Source: a virus
Virus record (IMG/VR): IMGVR_UViG_3300042503_000377
Coordinates: 1-20,465 of that record
Length of the DNA: 20,465 bases
Strand: one strand, 5' to 3'
Positions 5,382-13,084 of the stretch are shown here, in pieces (position 1 is the first letter of the stretch; the number at the start of each line of letters is the position of its first letter). The notes under the pieces are model-generated. The model did no database searches, had not been told where the DNA came from, and saw only the letters and a program-made list of their open reading frames with translations. Made by a program: the position numbers and the translations under genes.

Positions 5382-5779
5382 CTTCCTACGCATACATTAA
5401 GCTCTCAACGGAAGAATATCCTCGGTTTCAGGGGGATATTCGCCTAGAGCACCCCGAAATAGGGGACGTATTTATTTGCCCAGACACTTACGCTGAGGTG
5501 TACGATCCAGCTACTGCAGTTGTTCCCGGGGAAAATGAAATAGCTGTTGAGGGAGCGCCGCTCAAGACTGGTGGTAGGTGGGTTCGGCAGTTTACTCTGC
5601 AACCGGCACCCCCCAAAGGCCCTTCGGTTAACCCCCCGTCTCCACAAAAAGACTCTCCAGTTAGTCTTCCACGACTACCGTCCGGGAAAGAGTCGATATT
5701 TCCTACCGCCGCTACAGGGCGTATCGAAATCAATTGTTTTGGCCCAACCGTGAAGGAACTCTGCTATGGCACAACCTGA
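5378..5779 (+). CDS. Hypothetical protein following the receptor-binding gene
   Basis: 133 aa. Residues 1-75 look like a folded domain (YAYIKLSTEEYPRFQGDIR, then IGDVFICPDTYAEV, ending RWVRQF). The rest is a Pro/Ser-rich low-complexity tail. Proteins with this type of N-terminal half are found directly after fibre genes in other phages, which suggests fibre assembly or tip capping, but no function is established from the sequence. The start codon sits in the upstream stop (ATGA) with no good ribosome site, so translation is probably coupled. Its end overlaps the first cupin gene by 14 bases. Confidence 0.65.
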   Translation: MTSYAYIKLSTEEYPRFQGDIRLEHPEIGDVFICPDTYAEVYDPATAVVPGENEIAVEGAPLKTGGRWVRQFTLQPAPPKGPSVNPPSPQKDSPVSLPRLPSGKESIFPTAATGRIEINCFGPTVKELCYGTT

Positions 5780-6125
5780 AGTTAACATTGGAACCGTTGC
5801 CAATGTGTTTGTTCGCCAAATGCACTTTGTTGCAGTAGGGGACCAAGAGGTGGGACACGCTCACCCGTTCAACCACTTGACGTTGCTGGCTAAAGGCAGC
5901 TTGGCTGTCAGAATAGGCGACAAAGAAACCGTTTTCACCGCCCCCAACATGATCTACATCGAGGCCGATGTGCAGCATGAACTAACGGCTGTTTCAGAAA
6001 ACACAGTGGCGTACTGTGTGCATGCTTTGCGTGAACAGACTGGCGATATTATTGACCCTACAAGCGTACCCAAAGGCTCTAAGCTCTTTGACTTGCTGTC
6101 CGCGTTGACTATCCGCGATGCGTAA
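5766..6125 (+). CDS. Single-domain cupin with complete His metal site
   Basis: 119 aa, the size of one cupin barrel. Motif 1 reads GHAHPFNHLTLLAKG (residues 30-44). This matches the cupin spacing HxH(x)3-E-(x)6-G, with His37 in place of the usual Glu. His71 in ADVQHEL stands where motif 2 has its His. His31, His33, His37 and His71 could bind one metal ion. Cupins range from dioxygenases and isomerases to pure binding proteins, so the reaction cannot be named. It lies between a probable receptor-binding module and two further cupin-like genes and overlaps both neighbours (14 and 8 bases), so it belongs to that unit. AAGGA lies seven bases upstream of the ATG. Confidence 0.75.
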   Translation: MAQPEVNIGTVANVFVRQMHFVAVGDQEVGHAHPFNHLTLLAKGSLAVRIGDKETVFTAPNMIYIEADVQHELTAVSENTVAYCVHALREQTGDIIDPTSVPKGSKLFDLLSALTIRDA

Positions 6126-6654
6126 GATTGCTGAAGAGGATGTCCCTGACTTCTGTGACTTGGTCCACTTTACTGAGTGGTACCTCGCTGCAGGTATGCC
6201 TGTGCTTTTGCCGCAGAAACCCGAAGTATTTTTGTCTGATGATGCTACCGCAACGTGCCTTTTCAGAAAAGGGCAGTATCAGTTCGAGATGTACTTTATT
6301 CACCCAAATCCAGTGATACCACTCCACGAACACCCCGGCGTGGAGAACATCGAGATTCCTAGTTCCGGGTGGGATAGACTTGACAGCTATAACCTTCGTT
6401 CCCGGGTGCAACAGCGTGGACAGCCCCACGGAAAAGGCATCCACGAGCGAGCTAAAAATGCAGGTTTTGCACTTTTTTCGGCACAGAAGTGGGACGAAGG
6501 TATAGAGATGTCCACCATTGGAGCGCGGTGGAAAGGCTTTACGGCAGGCCCCAAGCACGACGCGTTGATTCAGCGGTTTAACCCCGATTGCTTTGCATAC
6601 ACAGGGTACGCAGACGTGACGCTTAAAAAACCTCTGGCCACTGCGGTCGTGTAA
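6118..6654 (+). CDS. Cupin-like protein, paralogue of the next gene
   Basis: 178 aa. A central LHEHPGVENIEI (residues 69-80) has the HxH(x)3E core of cupin motif 1 (His70, His72, Glu76). His104 and His109 further on may complete the site. The frame FRKGQYQFEMYFI before it and GFALFSAQKW ... RWKG after it match the next gene in the same order (FRQGQFQAEVYLI, GSAFLSLEKW, NWKG), so the two are tandem paralogues. The piece between the two motifs differs and is shorter here, with a basic Arg/Gln-rich sequence (LRSRVQQRG) in place of the partner's Gly/Pro-rich loop. The ATG overlaps the end of the preceding cupin gene. Enzymatic or structural role unknown. Confidence 0.68.
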   Translation: MRKIAEEDVPDFCDLVHFTEWYLAAGMPVLLPQKPEVFLSDDATATCLFRKGQYQFEMYFIHPNPVIPLHEHPGVENIEIPSSGWDRLDSYNLRSRVQQRGQPHGKGIHERAKNAGFALFSAQKWDEGIEMSTIGARWKGFTAGPKHDALIQRFNPDCFAYTGYADVTLKKPLATAVV

Positions 6655-6663
6655 AGGTACGAG

Positions 6664-7230
6664 ATGCAGCTTGTTTTCCCAAACACCACAGGAACTCTTG
6701 AGGAGTTCGCCGCTTGGTATAAAGCAAACGCGTACCCCGTGCGCCCCCCGTTTGAAGACTGTGTGTATGTAACAGAGAACAGTTACAGCTATGTTCTATT
6801 CCGCCAAGGGCAGTTTCAGGCTGAGGTGTATTTGATTAAGCCAAACTCTAGATGCCCAGAGCACAGCCACCCACGGGTAGAGAACATAATTCTTTTTTGG
6901 GGTGGGGACGCAACGCCGTATTACGACGGGGTGCCGGTGAATATCGGGCCTTTTGTACGCTCCGCACCTGACGGCACGAGCCCCGCCTTCGGTGCTATGG
7001 GACCTAAGATCACGGACGCCCATACACATGCGTTACATACAGGCCCCAAGGGTTCTGCATTTTTGAGCCTTGAGAAGTGGCCAGAGGATGTAAAACCTAC
7101 AAGCGTTGTTGTGAACTGGAAAGGCGCTGCTATTGGAGAGCAGCACGCTACGCACGTAAACGCTTTGCTGGAACAGGCAAGCGAAGGTGGCGCAGTATCT
7201 CCCCACATGGTAGACTCGACCGCCAACTAA
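6664..7230 (+). CDS. Cupin-like protein with canonical motif 1
   Basis: 188 aa. PEHSHPRVENIILFWGG (residues 65-81) fits the cupin motif HxH(x)3E(x)6G exactly (His67, His69, Glu73, Gly80). His120, His122 and His125 in DAHTHALHTG lie where the second metal-binding motif is expected. Residues 40-60 and 130-155 align with the preceding gene (see that entry), pointing to duplication. The N-terminal 35 residues form a separate helix-turn piece with Trp and Tyr. AAAGGT lies just upstream of the ATG, in the nine bases after the previous stop. The gene ends 18 bases before a conserved tail structural gene. Confidence 0.7.
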   Translation: MQLVFPNTTGTLEEFAAWYKANAYPVRPPFEDCVYVTENSYSYVLFRQGQFQAEVYLIKPNSRCPEHSHPRVENIILFWGGDATPYYDGVPVNIGPFVRSAPDGTSPAFGAMGPKITDAHTHALHTGPKGSAFLSLEKWPEDVKPTSVVVNWKGAAIGEQHATHVNALLEQASEGGAVSPHMVDSTAN

Positions 7231-7248
7231 CCATTGCTAGGGCTCATC

Positions 7249-9261
7249 ATGGCAGCAGTCAACATCAAAGCATTTCGTGGGGCTGTACCGCGCATCAGCT
7301 CCAGACTTTTGCAGCCTAACCAAGCAGAAGTTGCTGACAACTGTAAGCTGACTTCCGGTAGCCTTGAACCTCTGAAAGGGCCGCTCTTGGTGCACTCGTC
7401 GCTGCTTGACGAAGTCAAGACCGCGTACTTTTGGCGAGCAATCATCGACAGCCGCCCACAAGACAACTGGCTCGTGTGGAACTCTGACGTCGACATCGCC
7501 AAGTCCTTGGTGCCAAACGACCCACTGCAGCGAATCTACTTCAGCAGCGAGGACTTTGAGCCCCGTATGTCTACGTACAACTTGGCAATTAACTCGTTGC
7601 CGTACCCGACTGCGTGGTACGCGCTTGGCGTTGTAGCACCTACAGCGGCTCCGACCATTACGCCCAGTGGCGGCTCTGGCACGCTGGAGTCTCGCTCGTA
7701 CGTGTATACGTACGTGACTGCTCTTGGCGAAGAGTCTCCACCTTCCCCACCTTCTACCGTGACGAACGGATACCCGAACGGTACGTGGAGTGTTACTGAC
7801 ATGCAGGTTGCGCCTCTGAACGCGGGCGCTGTTACAGGGGCTGTTTCCATACCCGGCGAACAGGTTCGTGTGACTCTGAATAGCACGTTTGGCTTTTCCC
7901 AGTACGACACGATCACGTTCTCTGGTGTGGGTGGTATGACCGACCTGAACGGCACATTCAGGATTCAATCGCTTGGCCCTACTGCCAACACGCTTGTGAT
8001 TAACCTGAACACAGCACAAACCTACACGTCTGGTGGCAGTTGGGCGAAGACAGCGCCACACAACACTGTCAACATGGTCAAGCGCATTTACCGCACCGTA
8101 GGAACATCAGGCACATTCCTGTTTGTGGCCGAAGTAGCAGTAACGAATCCTACATACTCTGACACAGTCCTCGCGGCGAGTCTTGGCGAAGAACTTCCAA
8201 CAGTCGACGCTTCGCTGCCACCAAAAAACTTGGTGTCGCTTATCAGTCTACCCAACGGGTGCTTGGTTGGTATCTCTGGCAACGAGGTGTGCTTCAGTGA
8301 CCCATACGTGCCATATTCTTGGCCAATCCGCAATCGCTACGCCTTCGGTGGTACCGGCGTAAAGCTGGTTGCGTCTGGCAACTCCGTCATTGTGCTGACT
8401 GACTCATACCCGATTTTGTTCACAGGCTCGGACCCAGAAGCCATGTCTCCATCCACGATGCCTACTTTTGCACCGTGCGTGTCTAAGCGTGGCGTTGTGG
8501 ACGTTGGCGGCGGATGCATGTACCCTAGCTTCGACGGACTTTGGCTCGCTTCCCCCGGCAGAGTAGACAAGATCACGGCCAAACTCTACCGCGAAGAAGA
8601 CTGGCGGTTGCTAAACCCAGAGTCTTTCGTTGCTGGTTTCTCTGATGGGCAGTACTACGCCAAGTACGATACTGAAAACTCGACGTTTATATGGCTTTTC
8701 GACACGCTGGAAAACGACAGTGTTGTTCGTGTTGAGCAGAGCGCTACGTACCTGCTCCGCAGTGAGACTGACGGCGAGCTTTATTTTGTGGTGGGCAAGA
8801 GTATCTACAAATGGGACAGCAGCTCCAATACCCGGTATACATCGGACTGGGTCAGTGCAGAAATCCAAGCCCCACGCCCGCTGAACTTCTCTGCCGCGCA
8901 GGTCCATGCTGGATTTGACACCGTGCTACCGCCAAACACGGCTGACCTTGAGTACAACGAGTCCATCATTGGTGACGTAGACTTGGTCGGCGGTAGCGTC
9001 AACGCTAACTCTTTGCTCGAACTGGAGATTAACGGGTCCAACCTACGAGCTGTTGTGCTGGAAACTGAAGCTGTGGTGCAGTTCACCCTGTACTCGAACG
9101 GCCAGCCTGTGTTCGTCACAGATGTTAGGTCTTCCAAACCATTCCGCCTTCCAGCTGGGTTCTTGTCGGAGGTCTACCAAGTTGGCATCACAACGTCTGT
9201 GCCGATCTACAACGTATCCATCGCTGAATCCATTTCTGAGCTGTCACAGGTCTCCTTATGA
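7249..9261 (+). CDS. Conserved tail structural protein, nozzle-type candidate
   Basis: 670 aa from ATG 7249. A TTG 15 bases upstream is in frame, but AGGG sits six bases before this ATG and MAAVNIKAFRG is the usual kind of N-terminus. Near residues 148-172 lies a fibronectin-like stretch (SYVYTYVTALGEESPPSPP), followed by an Ig-like insert at about 190-270. Residues 335-405 hold the block PNGCLVGISGNEVCFSDPY ... TGSDPEAMS, and SFDGLWLASPG follows near residue 425; these recur in a large family of phage virion proteins. In short-tailed phages such proteins form the lower tail tube, compare T7 gp12, but direct similarity to T7 gp12 is not visible here. The stop overlaps the next start as ATGA. 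Confidence 0.75.
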   Translation: MAAVNIKAFRGAVPRISSRLLQPNQAEVADNCKLTSGSLEPLKGPLLVHSSLLDEVKTAYFWRAIIDSRPQDNWLVWNSDVDIAKSLVPNDPLQRIYFSSEDFEPRMSTYNLAINSLPYPTAWYALGVVAPTAAPTITPSGGSGTLESRSYVYTYVTALGEESPPSPPSTVTNGYPNGTWSVTDMQVAPLNAGAVTGAVSIPGEQVRVTLNSTFGFSQYDTITFSGVGGMTDLNGTFRIQSLGPTANTLVINLNTAQTYTSGGSWAKTAPHNTVNMVKRIYRTVGTSGTFLFVAEVAVTNPTYSDTVLAASLGEELPTVDASLPPKNLVSLISLPNGCLVGISGNEVCFSDPYVPYSWPIRNRYAFGGTGVKLVASGNSVIVLTDSYPILFTGSDPEAMSPSTMPTFAPCVSKRGVVDVGGGCMYPSFDGLWLASPGRVDKITAKLYREEDWRLLNPESFVAGFSDGQYYAKYDTENSTFIWLFDTLENDSVVRVEQSATYLLRSETDGELYFVVGKSIYKWDSSSNTRYTSDWVSAEIQAPRPLNFSAAQVHAGFDTVLPPNTADLEYNESIIGDVDLVGGSVNANSLLELEINGSNLRAVVLETEAVVQFTLYSNGQPVFVTDVRSSKPFRLPAGFLSEVYQVGITTSVPIYNVSIAESISELSQVSL

Positions 9262-9452
9262 CAAAAGCCGCTATCCCCGTCGTCAACTCTGGCCAGTTTG
9301 ACATCGACCAATTTGCATCTGCTGTGAAGCAGAACATGGATGCCATGACGGGACAGGCCAGAAACGTGACCCGCCTGCAGCCGCTACCCGCCACCGCCAC
9401 GCTGGCCGAAGTGATCGCCCAGCTCAACGCCGTTGTGGATAGATTGCAGTAG
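9258..9452 (+). CDS. 64-aa hypothetical protein, structural-module companion
   Basis: The product has a polar N-terminal half (VNSGQFDIDQFASAVKQNMDAM) and ends in a predicted helix (LAEVIAQLNAVVDRLQ) with heptad-like hydrophobic spacing, which could form a small coiled coil. The ATGA overlap ties its translation to the tail structural gene. Small proteins of this type commonly accompany that structural gene in phages; a chaperone or minor virion role is a guess. Confidence 0.7.
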   Translation: MTKAAIPVVNSGQFDIDQFASAVKQNMDAMTGQARNVTRLQPLPATATLAEVIAQLNAVVDRLQ

Positions 9453-9471: not shown

Positions 9472-10350
9472 ATGGAACTTGAACTCGTAGAGCAGTCGGC
9501 AGTGGACTCCTGCTACCCTGATGGGGTGCCGGAAGGATTCCCCATTGATTTGTTCGAGCCGATCAACGGCCCAGAGCTGGTCATCCGCGAGGCCAAGCTG
9601 CGCAACAAGATCGACGCCCTGCAGGCGCTTATGCTGCAGCAGCCACAGGCTGATACGCCCGTGCGCAACGTGTTTTCTGGCGGCGTCTACGCCCGCGAGC
9701 TGTTCATCCCCAAGGGGACTTTGCTGGTGGGCAAGCTGCACATGACTGAGCACTTGAACATCTGCATGCAGGGCGACCTCACATTCATGACGGCAGACGG
9801 ACCTAAGCGTATCAAGGCTCCGGCCATGTTTTCGTCCCCCGCTGGCACGAAGAAGTTAGCGTACGCCAACGAAGATTCGATCTGGATCAATGTGCACCCT
9901 GACTTGGGCCTTGAGCCTGACCAGATCATTGATGCCATCACAGTGAACACATTCGCTGAATACGAGAAACTTGTTGCCCACGCCAGCTTCAAAGACACCA
10001 TTGCTGCGTTCGGGCTGGCTGAAGATACTGTACGTACCGTGTCCGTCGACGAGTCTACGCTGGACAGAACTCCACTAGACGGCGTTGAGGTGCGCGAGTC
10101 CGCTATCGAAGGGTCAGGCTTGTTTTCCTTGCGCGGGTTCAGCGCAGGTGAGAAAATCTGCGTCGCGCTTGTGGACGGCAAACGGTCTCTGGCTGGGAGG
10201 TATTCCAACCATTCGCCCACGCCCAACTGCAATTTTTCTGTCGTCGATGGTGCACTGTGGCTTGTGGCAGGTCGCGAGATCGAGCCTGACGAGGAACTTA
10301 CCACCAATTACGGTGATACATTGACCCTTATCCAAGGGTTGGGGAGCTGA
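9472..10350 (+). CDS. Cupin-SET fusion, predicted protein-lysine methyltransferase
   Basis: 292 aa. Residues about 71-142 are a cupin-like barrel: KLHMTEHLNICMQG (88-101) keeps the H(x)3H(x)6G spacing of the cupin encoded at 5766, but the first motif-1 His is Lys88 and the motif-2 position is Lys128, so metal binding may be lost. Residues 205-283 are a compact SET domain: IEGSGLFSLRGF (212-223) for cofactor binding, GRYSNHSPTPNC (242-253) with the NHS core at 246-248, and EELTTNYGD with the probable catalytic Tyr280. SET enzymes move methyl groups from S-adenosylmethionine to lysine side chains. The insert between the first two motifs is much shorter than in eukaryotic SET domains. The target may be a virion or host protein. 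No clear ribosome site precedes the ATG. Confidence 0.82.
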   Translation: MELELVEQSAVDSCYPDGVPEGFPIDLFEPINGPELVIREAKLRNKIDALQALMLQQPQADTPVRNVFSGGVYARELFIPKGTLLVGKLHMTEHLNICMQGDLTFMTADGPKRIKAPAMFSSPAGTKKLAYANEDSIWINVHPDLGLEPDQIIDAITVNTFAEYEKLVAHASFKDTIAAFGLAEDTVRTVSVDESTLDRTPLDGVEVRESAIEGSGLFSLRGFSAGEKICVALVDGKRSLAGRYSNHSPTPNCNFSVVDGALWLVAGREIEPDEELTTNYGDTLTLIQGLGS

Positions 10351-10352
10351 TT

Positions 10353-11294
10353 ATGAGTGCTGTTGTTGGTGCAATTGCTGTCGGTGGCGGTCTTGCTATG
10401 GGACTTGGCGGAGCTGCGCTTGTCGGCGCTGGCGTGGCTGGCGTGGCTGGCGGCTTAATGATGCAAGAGGGGCGCGAAAACGCCGCTGAAGCTCAGGCTG
10501 CACAAGAACGCGCCGCTGCTGGTTTGGCCTCGTCGTCTGACTACGCTGCTAAGTTGTCGTACAACTTGGGCCAAGACCAACTGGCTTTCGAGAAACAGCA
10601 GTACGCTGAGATGAAGCCGTTGGCGGAACGTGTTTCTGCATCACAGGTTGCGGCGCAAGACGAGCAAATGCGGCAAGGGCGCGACTACTACAACTACCAG
10701 ACTAATACGTTCCGCCCGCTTGAGCAGGGTCTGGTTTCACAAGTCCAACAGTTTGACACTGAGGCTTACCGTGAGCAGCTGGCCTCGCAGGCTGCGGCAG
10801 ACGTTTCGCGTGCATTCGGTGTGGCGCAGGGCATGACCACTCGTGATCAAGCTCGTCGTGGTGTTGGCCCCGGCTCAGGCAACGCCTTGGCCATGAACAA
10901 CCAGAACGCTTTGGCGCTGGCTTCTGCCCGCGCAGGCGCGGCTACAGGTGCACGCAATCAGGCTGAGCAGCTCGGCTACGCCCGCAAGCTGGATGTCACA
11001 GGTCTTGGCCGTGGTCTGGCTGGAGCGTCTACTGCAGCGTACGGTGCAGCAACAACCGCTGGCACCGCTGGCTTGAACTCTGCCATGGCACCGGGTGCTC
11101 AGTACTCCGCAGGCGCAAACCGCGCAGCTGGCGTTATGACCACTGGCGCAGGACAACAAATTTCTGGGTACAGCTCACTGTACGGCGGCGCGACAAGCCT
11201 TGCCTCCGCTGCAATGCAGGAACAAGCAGGCATGACTGGCTCTCTGCTCGGCATGGCCGGAACTTTGGGCGCTGGCTACCTCGGCAGAAAATAA
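10353..11294 (+). CDS. Internal virion / DNA-ejection protein A
   Basis: 313 aa. Residues 3-36 are a Gly/Ala/Val hydrophobic stretch able to enter a membrane. Next comes a Gln/Glu/Ala-rich helical middle (residues 45-165) and then an Ala/Gly-rich second half ending in another mildly hydrophobic segment (285-312). This fits the small ejection protein of short-tailed phages, the kind of role T7 gp14 plays, where internal virion proteins are pushed into the host envelope and form a DNA conduit. Sequence alone does not prove this; the place directly before two larger ejection-type proteins supports it. GGGGAG lies six bases upstream of the ATG. Confidence 0.68.
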   Translation: MSAVVGAIAVGGGLAMGLGGAALVGAGVAGVAGGLMMQEGRENAAEAQAAQERAAAGLASSSDYAAKLSYNLGQDQLAFEKQQYAEMKPLAERVSASQVAAQDEQMRQGRDYYNYQTNTFRPLEQGLVSQVQQFDTEAYREQLASQAAADVSRAFGVAQGMTTRDQARRGVGPGSGNALAMNNQNALALASARAGAATGARNQAEQLGYARKLDVTGLGRGLAGASTAAYGAATTAGTAGLNSAMAPGAQYSAGANRAAGVMTTGAGQQISGYSSLYGGATSLASAAMQEQAGMTGSLLGMAGTLGAGYLGRK

Positions 11295-11305: not shown

Positions 11306-13084
11306 ATGGCAAGCGCATTCGCACAGGGCATGGAGTCTGGAACACGACTCGCCAAAAGCTGGTTGGACACGTACAACCAAACCGAAGAGAAAACACGCAA
11401 GCGTCGCGCTGCTGAGGAAATCGCTGCAGCTGGTACCACCAGCCTTGCAGAACTCCCAGAGCAGCCACGTGTGTACACCCCCGAAGCTCCTGCCGCCCCT
11501 GCCGCTCCCGCGCTCGGTACTGGCGCATACGGCACAGAAGAAGACTACACGAGCATCCAGCCTCAAGGCTTGGTGCGTCCTCAGCCTGCCGCCCCTGCGG
11601 CGACACCACCGGGCACTGGGTTTGCTCGCGGGTACACAGCTGATCAGACTCAGGCCGTGCGTTCTGCGTACGCTACAGGCGGCGCTCCTGCTGCTGAGCG
11701 AGCAGCTACTGCTCAAGGCGTCCCCACACAAGGGCTCACGCGCCCAATCCCCATGTCGCAGCAGCTTGCCCGTCAGGCTGACATCTACGCACGCAACGGG
11801 TTGACAGATCAGGCCGAGCAGTACCGCCTGAAAGCATACGACGTCAGTCGCCAAGAGGAACAGGATGCACGTGCTCGGGAAGCCGACGCTCGCACCAAAG
11901 CCGATTACGAGCAGAAGCAAAACACCAATAACGCTGCCCAGTGGATGGCCGAGCAGATCAGCTCAGGCCGCACTGCAGACATGACTCTGATCGCTGAAGC
12001 ACAGACAAAGTTCAAGGGCAACTACGACACGCTCTTGTCCACCACTGCCAACGTGCTGGGTATTACCGACAAGATCGCGAAGCAGAAGACAGACCAACTG
12101 GTGAACCAGATCAATGAAGCTGTGCTGGGCGGTGAAGCATCGTTCAACAAGTTGTTGGGGTCGTTTGCTGACCCGAACAAAGAGGACAACATCACCCCCA
12201 AGCTGATGCAAGTCAAGGGCGGCGTGCAGGTCATGTACGGCAACAAGCCCATGAGCCCAGTGTTCACTGGCGCTGACGGCATTTCTCCTCTGCAACAAGC
12301 TGGTGCGTTCTACATCAACACCGCACAGGGCAAACCGTTTGAAACCGCTATCCAGATGCAGAACCTTGCAAAGGGTGCGGCTGCTATTAAGGCTTCTGAA
12401 GCGACTACTAATGCGTCTAATGCTACAGTTGGGTTGCGTAATGCTCAGATCGGGCAAATCAAAGAGGGCAGTAAAAACGCAACCGAACGTGCAGACATTG
12501 TTGATAAATTTGAAGCGCTCACACCGGAAGAGCAAGCTGGTCCAAAAGGTCAAGGTCTCATTAAGCAGTTCAACCTGCTCAACGTAAAAGCCGGTGGTCA
12601 GGTGTCGCTTGGCGCAGCCCCTAAAACCGCTGGCCCTGTCAAAATGGATGATCTCGATAAAGAGAACTTGCGTGCGTACCGCGACTGGGAGAAAGACCCA
12701 CGTAACGCTAAGCTGCCGCAAGGGCAGAAAGACGCTTACGCTGCACGACTTGGGGTCACAGAGTTTATCAATCGCGCTGCTGCTGGCCCGCAAACTGGTG
12801 TGGGCTCGAACCCGTACGCTGCATCACAGCAGGGCGTGGACACTACTCGCGCTCCAACTCCTGCTGCCCCTGCTGCCCCTGCTGCCGCTCCTGCTCCGAT
12901 GGCACTGAGCACAGAAAATACGAAGATACTAAACCGTGCCGGAAACACAGGCTACAACGTACAATTGCCAGACGGCACGACACAAGTGATGTCGATCTCG
13001 CAGCTCAACAAGCTGGGTTATCAGTTCCCTAGTGGCACTGGACTTCAGCGAGCATGGTACGAAGATTTGCTGCCACGTCGCTGA
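11306..13084 (+). CDS. Internal virion / DNA-ejection protein B
   Basis: 592 aa, no signal peptide and no TM. It has a helical N-terminus (GMESGTRLAKSWLDTYNQTEEK), a Pro/Ala linker at residues 55-70 with further Pro-rich sequence to about 150, then a long Ala/Gln/Lys-rich helical middle (residues 150-420). A second Pro/Ala linker at about 510-530 leads to a small C-terminal domain (NVQLPDGTTQVMSISQLNKLGY) that looks like a compact binding module. Size, helical content and position between two other ejection-type genes suggest a middle ejection protein, by analogy with T7 gp15; no sequence match to gp15 is claimed. AAGGAG lies seven bases before the ATG. Confidence 0.65.
   Translation: MASAFAQGMESGTRLAKSWLDTYNQTEEKTRKRRAAEEIAAAGTTSLAELPEQPRVYTPEAPAAPAAPALGTGAYGTEEDYTSIQPQGLVRPQPAAPAATPPGTGFARGYTADQTQAVRSAYATGGAPAAERAATAQGVPTQGLTRPIPMSQQLARQADIYARNGLTDQAEQYRLKAYDVSRQEEQDARAREADARTKADYEQKQNTNNAAQWMAEQISSGRTADMTLIAEAQTKFKGNYDTLLSTTANVLGITDKIAKQKTDQLVNQINEAVLGGEASFNKLLGSFADPNKEDNITPKLMQVKGGVQVMYGNKPMSPVFTGADGISPLQQAGAFYINTAQGKPFETAIQMQNLAKGAAAIKASEATTNASNATVGLRNAQIGQIKEGSKNATERADIVDKFEALTPEEQAGPKGQGLIKQFNLLNVKAGGQVSLGAAPKTAGPVKMDDLDKENLRAYRDWEKDPRNAKLPQGQKDAYAARLGVTEFINRAAAGPQTGVGSNPYAASQQGVDTTRAPTPAAPAAPAAAPAPMALSTENTKILNRAGNTGYNVQLPDGTTQVMSISQLNKLGYQFPSGTGLQRAWYEDLLPRR
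12860..12886 (+). repeat. Three perfect copies of CCTGCTGCC in a Pro/Ala linker
   Basis: Three head-to-tail copies of a 9-bp unit encode part of the second Pro/Ala linker of ejection protein B. Such a tract can gain or lose units by slippage and so change the linker length without shifting the frame. Confidence 0.7.

Follow-up and report, generated by a model that had tools for sequence, protein, structure and literature searches.

The cupin-SET locus

The window that we analysed is a 20,465-nt stretch of viral DNA (positions 1 to 20,465 of IMG/VR record IMGVR_UViG_3300042503_000377). It encodes a protein in which a cupin domain is fused to a SET domain (cupin-SET), with a gp10-like tail gene on its 5' side and genes for ejection-type proteins on its 3' side (Table 1). 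The position, reading frame and motifs given for this fusion in a preliminary description of the DNA were all borne out, as was the late-operon setting among tail and ejection proteins.

Table 1. Genes, domains and motifs at the cupin-SET locus (window coordinates; fractions are members of the 46-member alignment sharing the residue)
Feature	Coordinates	Strand	Evidence
gp10-like head-closure / internal virion protein	7234..9261	+	phrog_511 3.9e-130; BcepIL02 gp63 homologue
64-aa ORF between head-closure and cupin-SET genes	9258..9452	+	Position; family search without match
cupin-SET gene, 292 aa	9472..10350	+	Translation, reading frame unbroken
N-terminal helix, residues 34-54	9571..9633	+	AlphaFold model
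Cupin jelly roll, residues 64-143	9661..9900	+	phrog_12032 2.8e-37; Foldseek cupins 2e-6
Helical linker, residues 149-191	9916..10044	+	AlphaFold model
Compact SET domain, residues 205-283	10084..10320	+	Pfam SET (PF00856) 5.2e-10; profile versus MLL1 3e-12; Foldseek
SET-N motif SAIEGSGLF (S-x-I-x-G-x-G-x-F), residues 210-218	10099..10125	+	S210, G216 46/46; G214 44/46
GRYSNHSPTPNC motif (cofactor-binding NHS), residues 242-253	10195..10230	+	G242, R243, N246, H247 46/46; N252 45/46
EELTTNYGD, residues 274-282, putative catalytic Tyr280	10291..10311 (EELTTNY)	+	E275, Y280 46/46 (both in the search pattern)
GGGGAG, likely Shine-Dalgarno of the downstream gene, within the 3' end of the SET reading frame	10341..10346	+	Sequence
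Small ejection-type protein, opening the putative three-ORF ejection cluster	10353..11294	+	phrog_8003; BcepIL02 gp66 homologue, E 2e-18
Putative ejection cluster, second ORF	11306..13084	+	Position and size only
Putative ejection cluster, third ORF, 1969 aa	13032..18941	+	Position and size only

Near-identical copies of the cupin-SET gene are present in IMG/VR, and a comparison with the most diverged of these (L018) revealed 25 synonymous versus 6 nonsynonymous codon changes. Since synonymous changes dominate among near relatives, the gene is, by this measure, under purifying selection. Its start is ambiguous: the ATG at 9472 has no strong Shine-Dalgarno sequence, and there is an alternative TTG at 9433. 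Residues 1-32 of the protein are predicted to be disordered. When searched at full length against PHROGs, cupin-SET matches phrog_34170 (E 1.1e-46), a 296-aa full-length cupin-SET family containing the proteins of phages PH1 and P26218, which shows no structural difference from the window protein and has no function assigned.

The pairing of cupin-SET with an ejection-type gene is nearly invariant. Such an ORF lies directly 3' in 77/77 SET loci (i.e., those with sequence extending past the cupin-SET gene), starting at -25 to +2 nt relative to the cupin-SET stop codon. In all 77, its product has a small-residue, hydrophobic N terminus of the form MS[AG]..A......GG, and Shine-Dalgarno-like sites for this downstream gene were found in 65 of the 77 relatives. 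A C-terminal "CQ" is common in relatives, which we rejected as a functional motif because it appears merely to reflect the ATG-TCN start of the next gene in an overlapping frame. In loci encoding cupin-only proteins (see below), an ejection-type ORF, as we defined it, comes next in 51/53, and the remaining two resemble the others. The third and largest ORF of the putative ejection cluster had no match in Pfam and no significant match in PHROGs. P22 gp14, considered as a homologue in the cupin-SET slot, showed no similarity (hhalign probability 0.2%). In the gp10-like protein, residues 211-269 match Pfam E1_FCCH above the cut-off, which is unexpected in a phage tail protein.

A compact SET domain fused to a cupin

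The match of the C-terminal half to the Pfam SET model exceeds the curated cut-off and, at ~79 residues, this is the smallest SET domain met in our analysis. The SET landmarks occur in the order described initially, up to the probable catalytic Tyr280, and 0 of 200,000 shuffles of the cupin-SET protein match this ordered pattern. When 46 diverse cupin-SET members were aligned, all of which match Pfam SET, we found R75, G101, S210, G216, G242, R243, N246, H247, E275 and Y280 to be invariant, with the proviso that the E275/T277/Y280 stretch belonged to the pattern used to gather relatives from IMG/VR. Position 248 is either Ser or Ala. Nearly every SET-bearing relative retrieved by cupin-only patterns has the EELTTNY-type motif too; among the SET-bearing ORFs listed, those not matching the search pattern are L132, which has HEITVNY, and the short L146 and L147, the latter cut by a contig end. 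The SET signature is kept among relatives sharing 27-36% identity. A natural variant of it occurs in a relative from an Anaerolineae bin (L100:7730-8855), in which NQS replaces NHS.

G216 and N246 span exactly 31 residues in the window protein and in every one of the 46 relatives, in all of which the SET-I insert is missing. For this reason, the compact SET domain is a fixed trait of the family and not damage in one genome, which generalizes the very short insert and the domain of about 80 residues noted beforehand.

We produced an AlphaFold2 model of cupin-SET using the 46 natural relatives as input (mean pLDDT 87.8), in which the SET strands are found at residues 205-278. Comparison of a predicted structure with known SET domains, proposed in the preliminary description, recovered by Foldseek both SETD8 (4.8e-5) and MLL1 (6u9m; 5e-5, 27% identity). 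The best solved match of the family profile is the SET domain of MLL1/KMT2A (3.3e-12), which aligns in two blocks bracketing the missing SET-I. The aligned motifs are SxIxGxGLF, GRYtNHsktpN with ARFINHSCEPN, and geEiTvdY with EELTYDY. The first block ends at MLL1 chain residue 44 and the second begins at 88, leaving 43 residues between them, whereas the cupin-SET profile has ~8 positions there. No match of the profile to the post-SET part of MLL was seen. Another small viral SET protein, the histone H3K27 methyltransferase vSET of PBCV-1 (1n3j), matches the family profile through its C-terminal half (9.9e-8). However, vSET is a stand-alone protein of 119 aa with a GxG-NHS span of ~53 residues by manual count (i.e., ~22 longer than in cupin-SET), whereas the window domain comes from a bacterial virus and is joined to a cupin. 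Model and alignment together indicate that the window protein has a SET fold with its cofactor and catalytic signature intact.

The N-terminal half adopts, in the same model, the double-stranded β-helix of cupins, with strands at residues 64-143 and cupin-2 structures as Foldseek matches. Pfam cupin models had no match in the protein, while its PHROG matches are phrog_12032, named "short tail fiber protein," and phrog_24280, named "tail fiber adhesin." The His/Glu tetrad, which is typical of metal cupins but not of every cupin fold, is incomplete in the window cupin, K88 and K127/K128 replacing His. The loss of two metal ligands proposed earlier (Lys88 and Lys128) is thus broadly right, but the two positions differ: Lys88, which stands in for the first His of HxH, is replaced by His in 28/46 relatives, whereas 45/46 members have Lys or Arg at the position of the motif-2 His (K127 or K128 in the alignment). 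Because of this family-wide loss, the cupin is unlikely to bind metal in the classical way.

Other cupins may be encoded in the window. The ORF at 5766-6125 encodes a stand-alone cupin of 119 aa with an intact HxH (GHAHPFNHL), which hhalign relates to the cupin-SET family with a probability of 90.6%. The ORFs at 6118-6654 and 6664-7230 are mutual paralogues (31% identity, E 2e-19), both with HxHPxVENI motifs, and the former has a weak match (0.0019) to PCO_ADO, a cupin-like family of dioxygenases. Judging from these similarities, the window may therefore hold four cupin-type proteins.

Spread of the family and gain or loss of its SET domain

A profile scan identified at least 534 relatives in IMG/VR, making cupin-SET a member of a large podovirus family. 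Full-length homologues with 28-37% identity are found in GenBank in Pseudoalteromonas phage PH1, Rhodoferax phage P26218, zth2-2 and two Manatee Spring genomes, one of which was deposited twice. Among 50,697 GenBank phages, this SET type occurs in 8 records (~5 phages) and only as a fusion with the cupin; when the SET portion is searched alone, it retrieves just the records holding full-length homologues. One scan of bacterial genomes revealed six loci, mostly on phage-like contigs in metagenome bins.

The cupin also occurs without SET. Cupin-only proteins of ~150-190 residues are encoded by Thalassomonas phage BA3, many Vibrio phages and 55 complete IMG/VR ORFs, in a slot equal to that of cupin-SET. 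The phrog_12032/24280 proteins of BA3 and Vibrio podoviruses share slot and cupin domain with the window protein but end after the cupin, whereas the window protein continues into SET. In a tree of the cupin domain, whose detail is limited by 117 columns and long branches, forms with and without SET intermingle, and a topology uniting all SET forms in one clade is rejected (p 0.001). We counted six switches between the two forms when rows cut by contig ends were dropped from the labels, and eight on a tree rebuilt without these rows. L127, L147 and L154 seemed to have lost SET, but they are truncated by contig ends and were taken out of the count. The cupin is hence, as reconstructed on this tree, the constant part of the family, to which SET has been added or from which it has been lost more than once.

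The domain types themselves were already known, and automated annotation has named proteins from uncultured phages "SET domain containing" (A0A6J5PTS6). We found no papers on a phage cupin-SET fusion, its size class, spread or gene linkage, which are accordingly without description in the literature found, and no enzymatic, proteomic or genetic data for any cupin-SET member.

Candidate roles in assembly

The preliminary description had proposed a phage lysine methyltransferase made together with ejection proteins. The SET fold, the intact signature and the co-expression all support this proposal, and from them we infer that cupin-SET is probably an active lysine methyltransferase. Alternatively, SET might be a non-catalytic domain binding S-adenosylmethionine (SAM) or a peptide, and serve the ejection protein as a sensor or as a chaperone in assembly. 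This would fit with the absence from all members of SET-I, a region that takes part in substrate binding in known SET enzymes, and with the many phages that manage with cupin-only forms. Yet binding alone would not demand that Tyr280 and the NH dyad be invariant in 46/46 members, and we regard such a non-catalytic role as quite improbable.

Lessieviruses, which are relatives by their flanking proteins, offer an analogue of the slot. In BcepIL02, a small ORF and the acetyltransferase gp65 (L182:11164-11601) lie between gp63 and gp66, the homologues of the two window proteins that flank cupin-SET. Like cupin-SET, BcepIL02 gp65 and JC1 gp63 are enzymes of a protein-modifying type encoded between homologous flanking genes, but they differ from it in fold and chemistry, being positional analogues and not homologues. 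The virion proteome of JC1 contains both flanking homologues, gp61 and gp64, the latter being the counterpart of BcepIL02 gp66, while the acetyltransferase gp63 is absent (PMC9144972). Similarly, for the T7-like phage phiPsa17, passages that list the virion proteins detected include gp14-16 but not the positional equivalent gp13 (PMC4517105). Since JC1 gp63 and phiPsa17 gp13 are missing from virion lists that include flanking products, this suggests, by analogy, that the slot encodes assembly-stage accessory proteins.

The JC1 proteome also bears on the possibility that cupin-SET is a virion tail component (a short tail fibre or adhesin) with a structural cupin and with SET exposed on the particle. 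The names of PHROGs 12032 and 24280 and the position of the gene beside the gp10-like tail gene would agree with it. However, in the papers found, the name "short tail fiber" given to this cupin has no experimental basis and is unvalidated: annotation of the phiAP1 cupin was never validated (PMC8703784), and papers on VvAW1, X14 and P26218 provide no support for a tail-fibre role. A sequence search turned up no solved phage tail structure containing this cupin. Moreover, soluble cupins and SET enzymes top the Foldseek list, the JC1 slot protein is missing from the virion, and a structural role leaves the invariant SAM-site signature unexplained. We therefore consider a tail component improbable.

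An accessory enzyme could instead be guided by its cupin. Docking by this domain, suggested in the preliminary description as a way of selecting the target, is supported by the finding of the cupin on its own in this slot and by the coming and going of SET on it, although docking itself we can only infer. Our preferred reading, which we hold with somewhat less than even confidence, is that cupin-SET is a late, cupin-docked mini SET-domain protein lysine methyltransferase of short-tailed phages, with ejection proteins as its substrates during assembly. Its cupin half would bind a partner in phage morphogenesis, probably the small ejection protein whose gene lies directly downstream and is co-translated. 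The SET half would then move methyl groups from SAM onto lysines of that or a neighbouring ejection protein, before the latter is packaged into the head. The most likely target, an assignment that we make tentatively, is one of the phage's own ejection proteins. Since no lysine is invariant within residues 1-90 of the downstream ejection-type protein, no substrate site is apparent there.

Phages with cupin-SET may thus place chemical tags on their own injection machinery or else on a host protein. The latter would be the case if an active SET methyltransferase had its substrate in the host late in infection and used the late operon only for expression. Active-site conservation would agree with such an enzyme, and the slot acetyltransferase of JC1 has a RimL-type domain that the JC1 authors consider in connection with gene regulation (PMC9144972). 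On the other hand, the near-invariant pairing with an ejection gene across very diverse phages, and a slot shared with cupin-only versions, both point to a role in assembly, which makes a host target rather unlikely.

SET protein lysine methylation has been studied mainly in eukaryotes, and in the literature searched there is no description of a phage SET enzyme that modifies the virion of that phage. A widespread minimal-SET family whose genes have a fixed position next to ejection genes would be a model of a compact, SET-I-free catalytic core, and would open a testable idea on how ejection proteins are prepared. It would also set right the misleading annotation "short tail fiber" in at least dozens of phage genomes.

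A broader version of the methylation reading is that the position 5' of the first ejection gene is a "modification slot," in which interchangeable enzymes (cupin mini-SET or GNAT acetyltransferase) tag lysines of ejection proteins. Such tags would let these proteins fold, pack or refold correctly during injection. We think this generalization doubtful; its GNAT analogy draws on the Lessieviruses plus zth2-2 (adjacent). An acetyltransferase alongside cupin genes is not a general rule, being seen at just 1/160 loci, and T7 gp13, examined as a candidate GNAT, is a probable scaffold protein according to Pfam.
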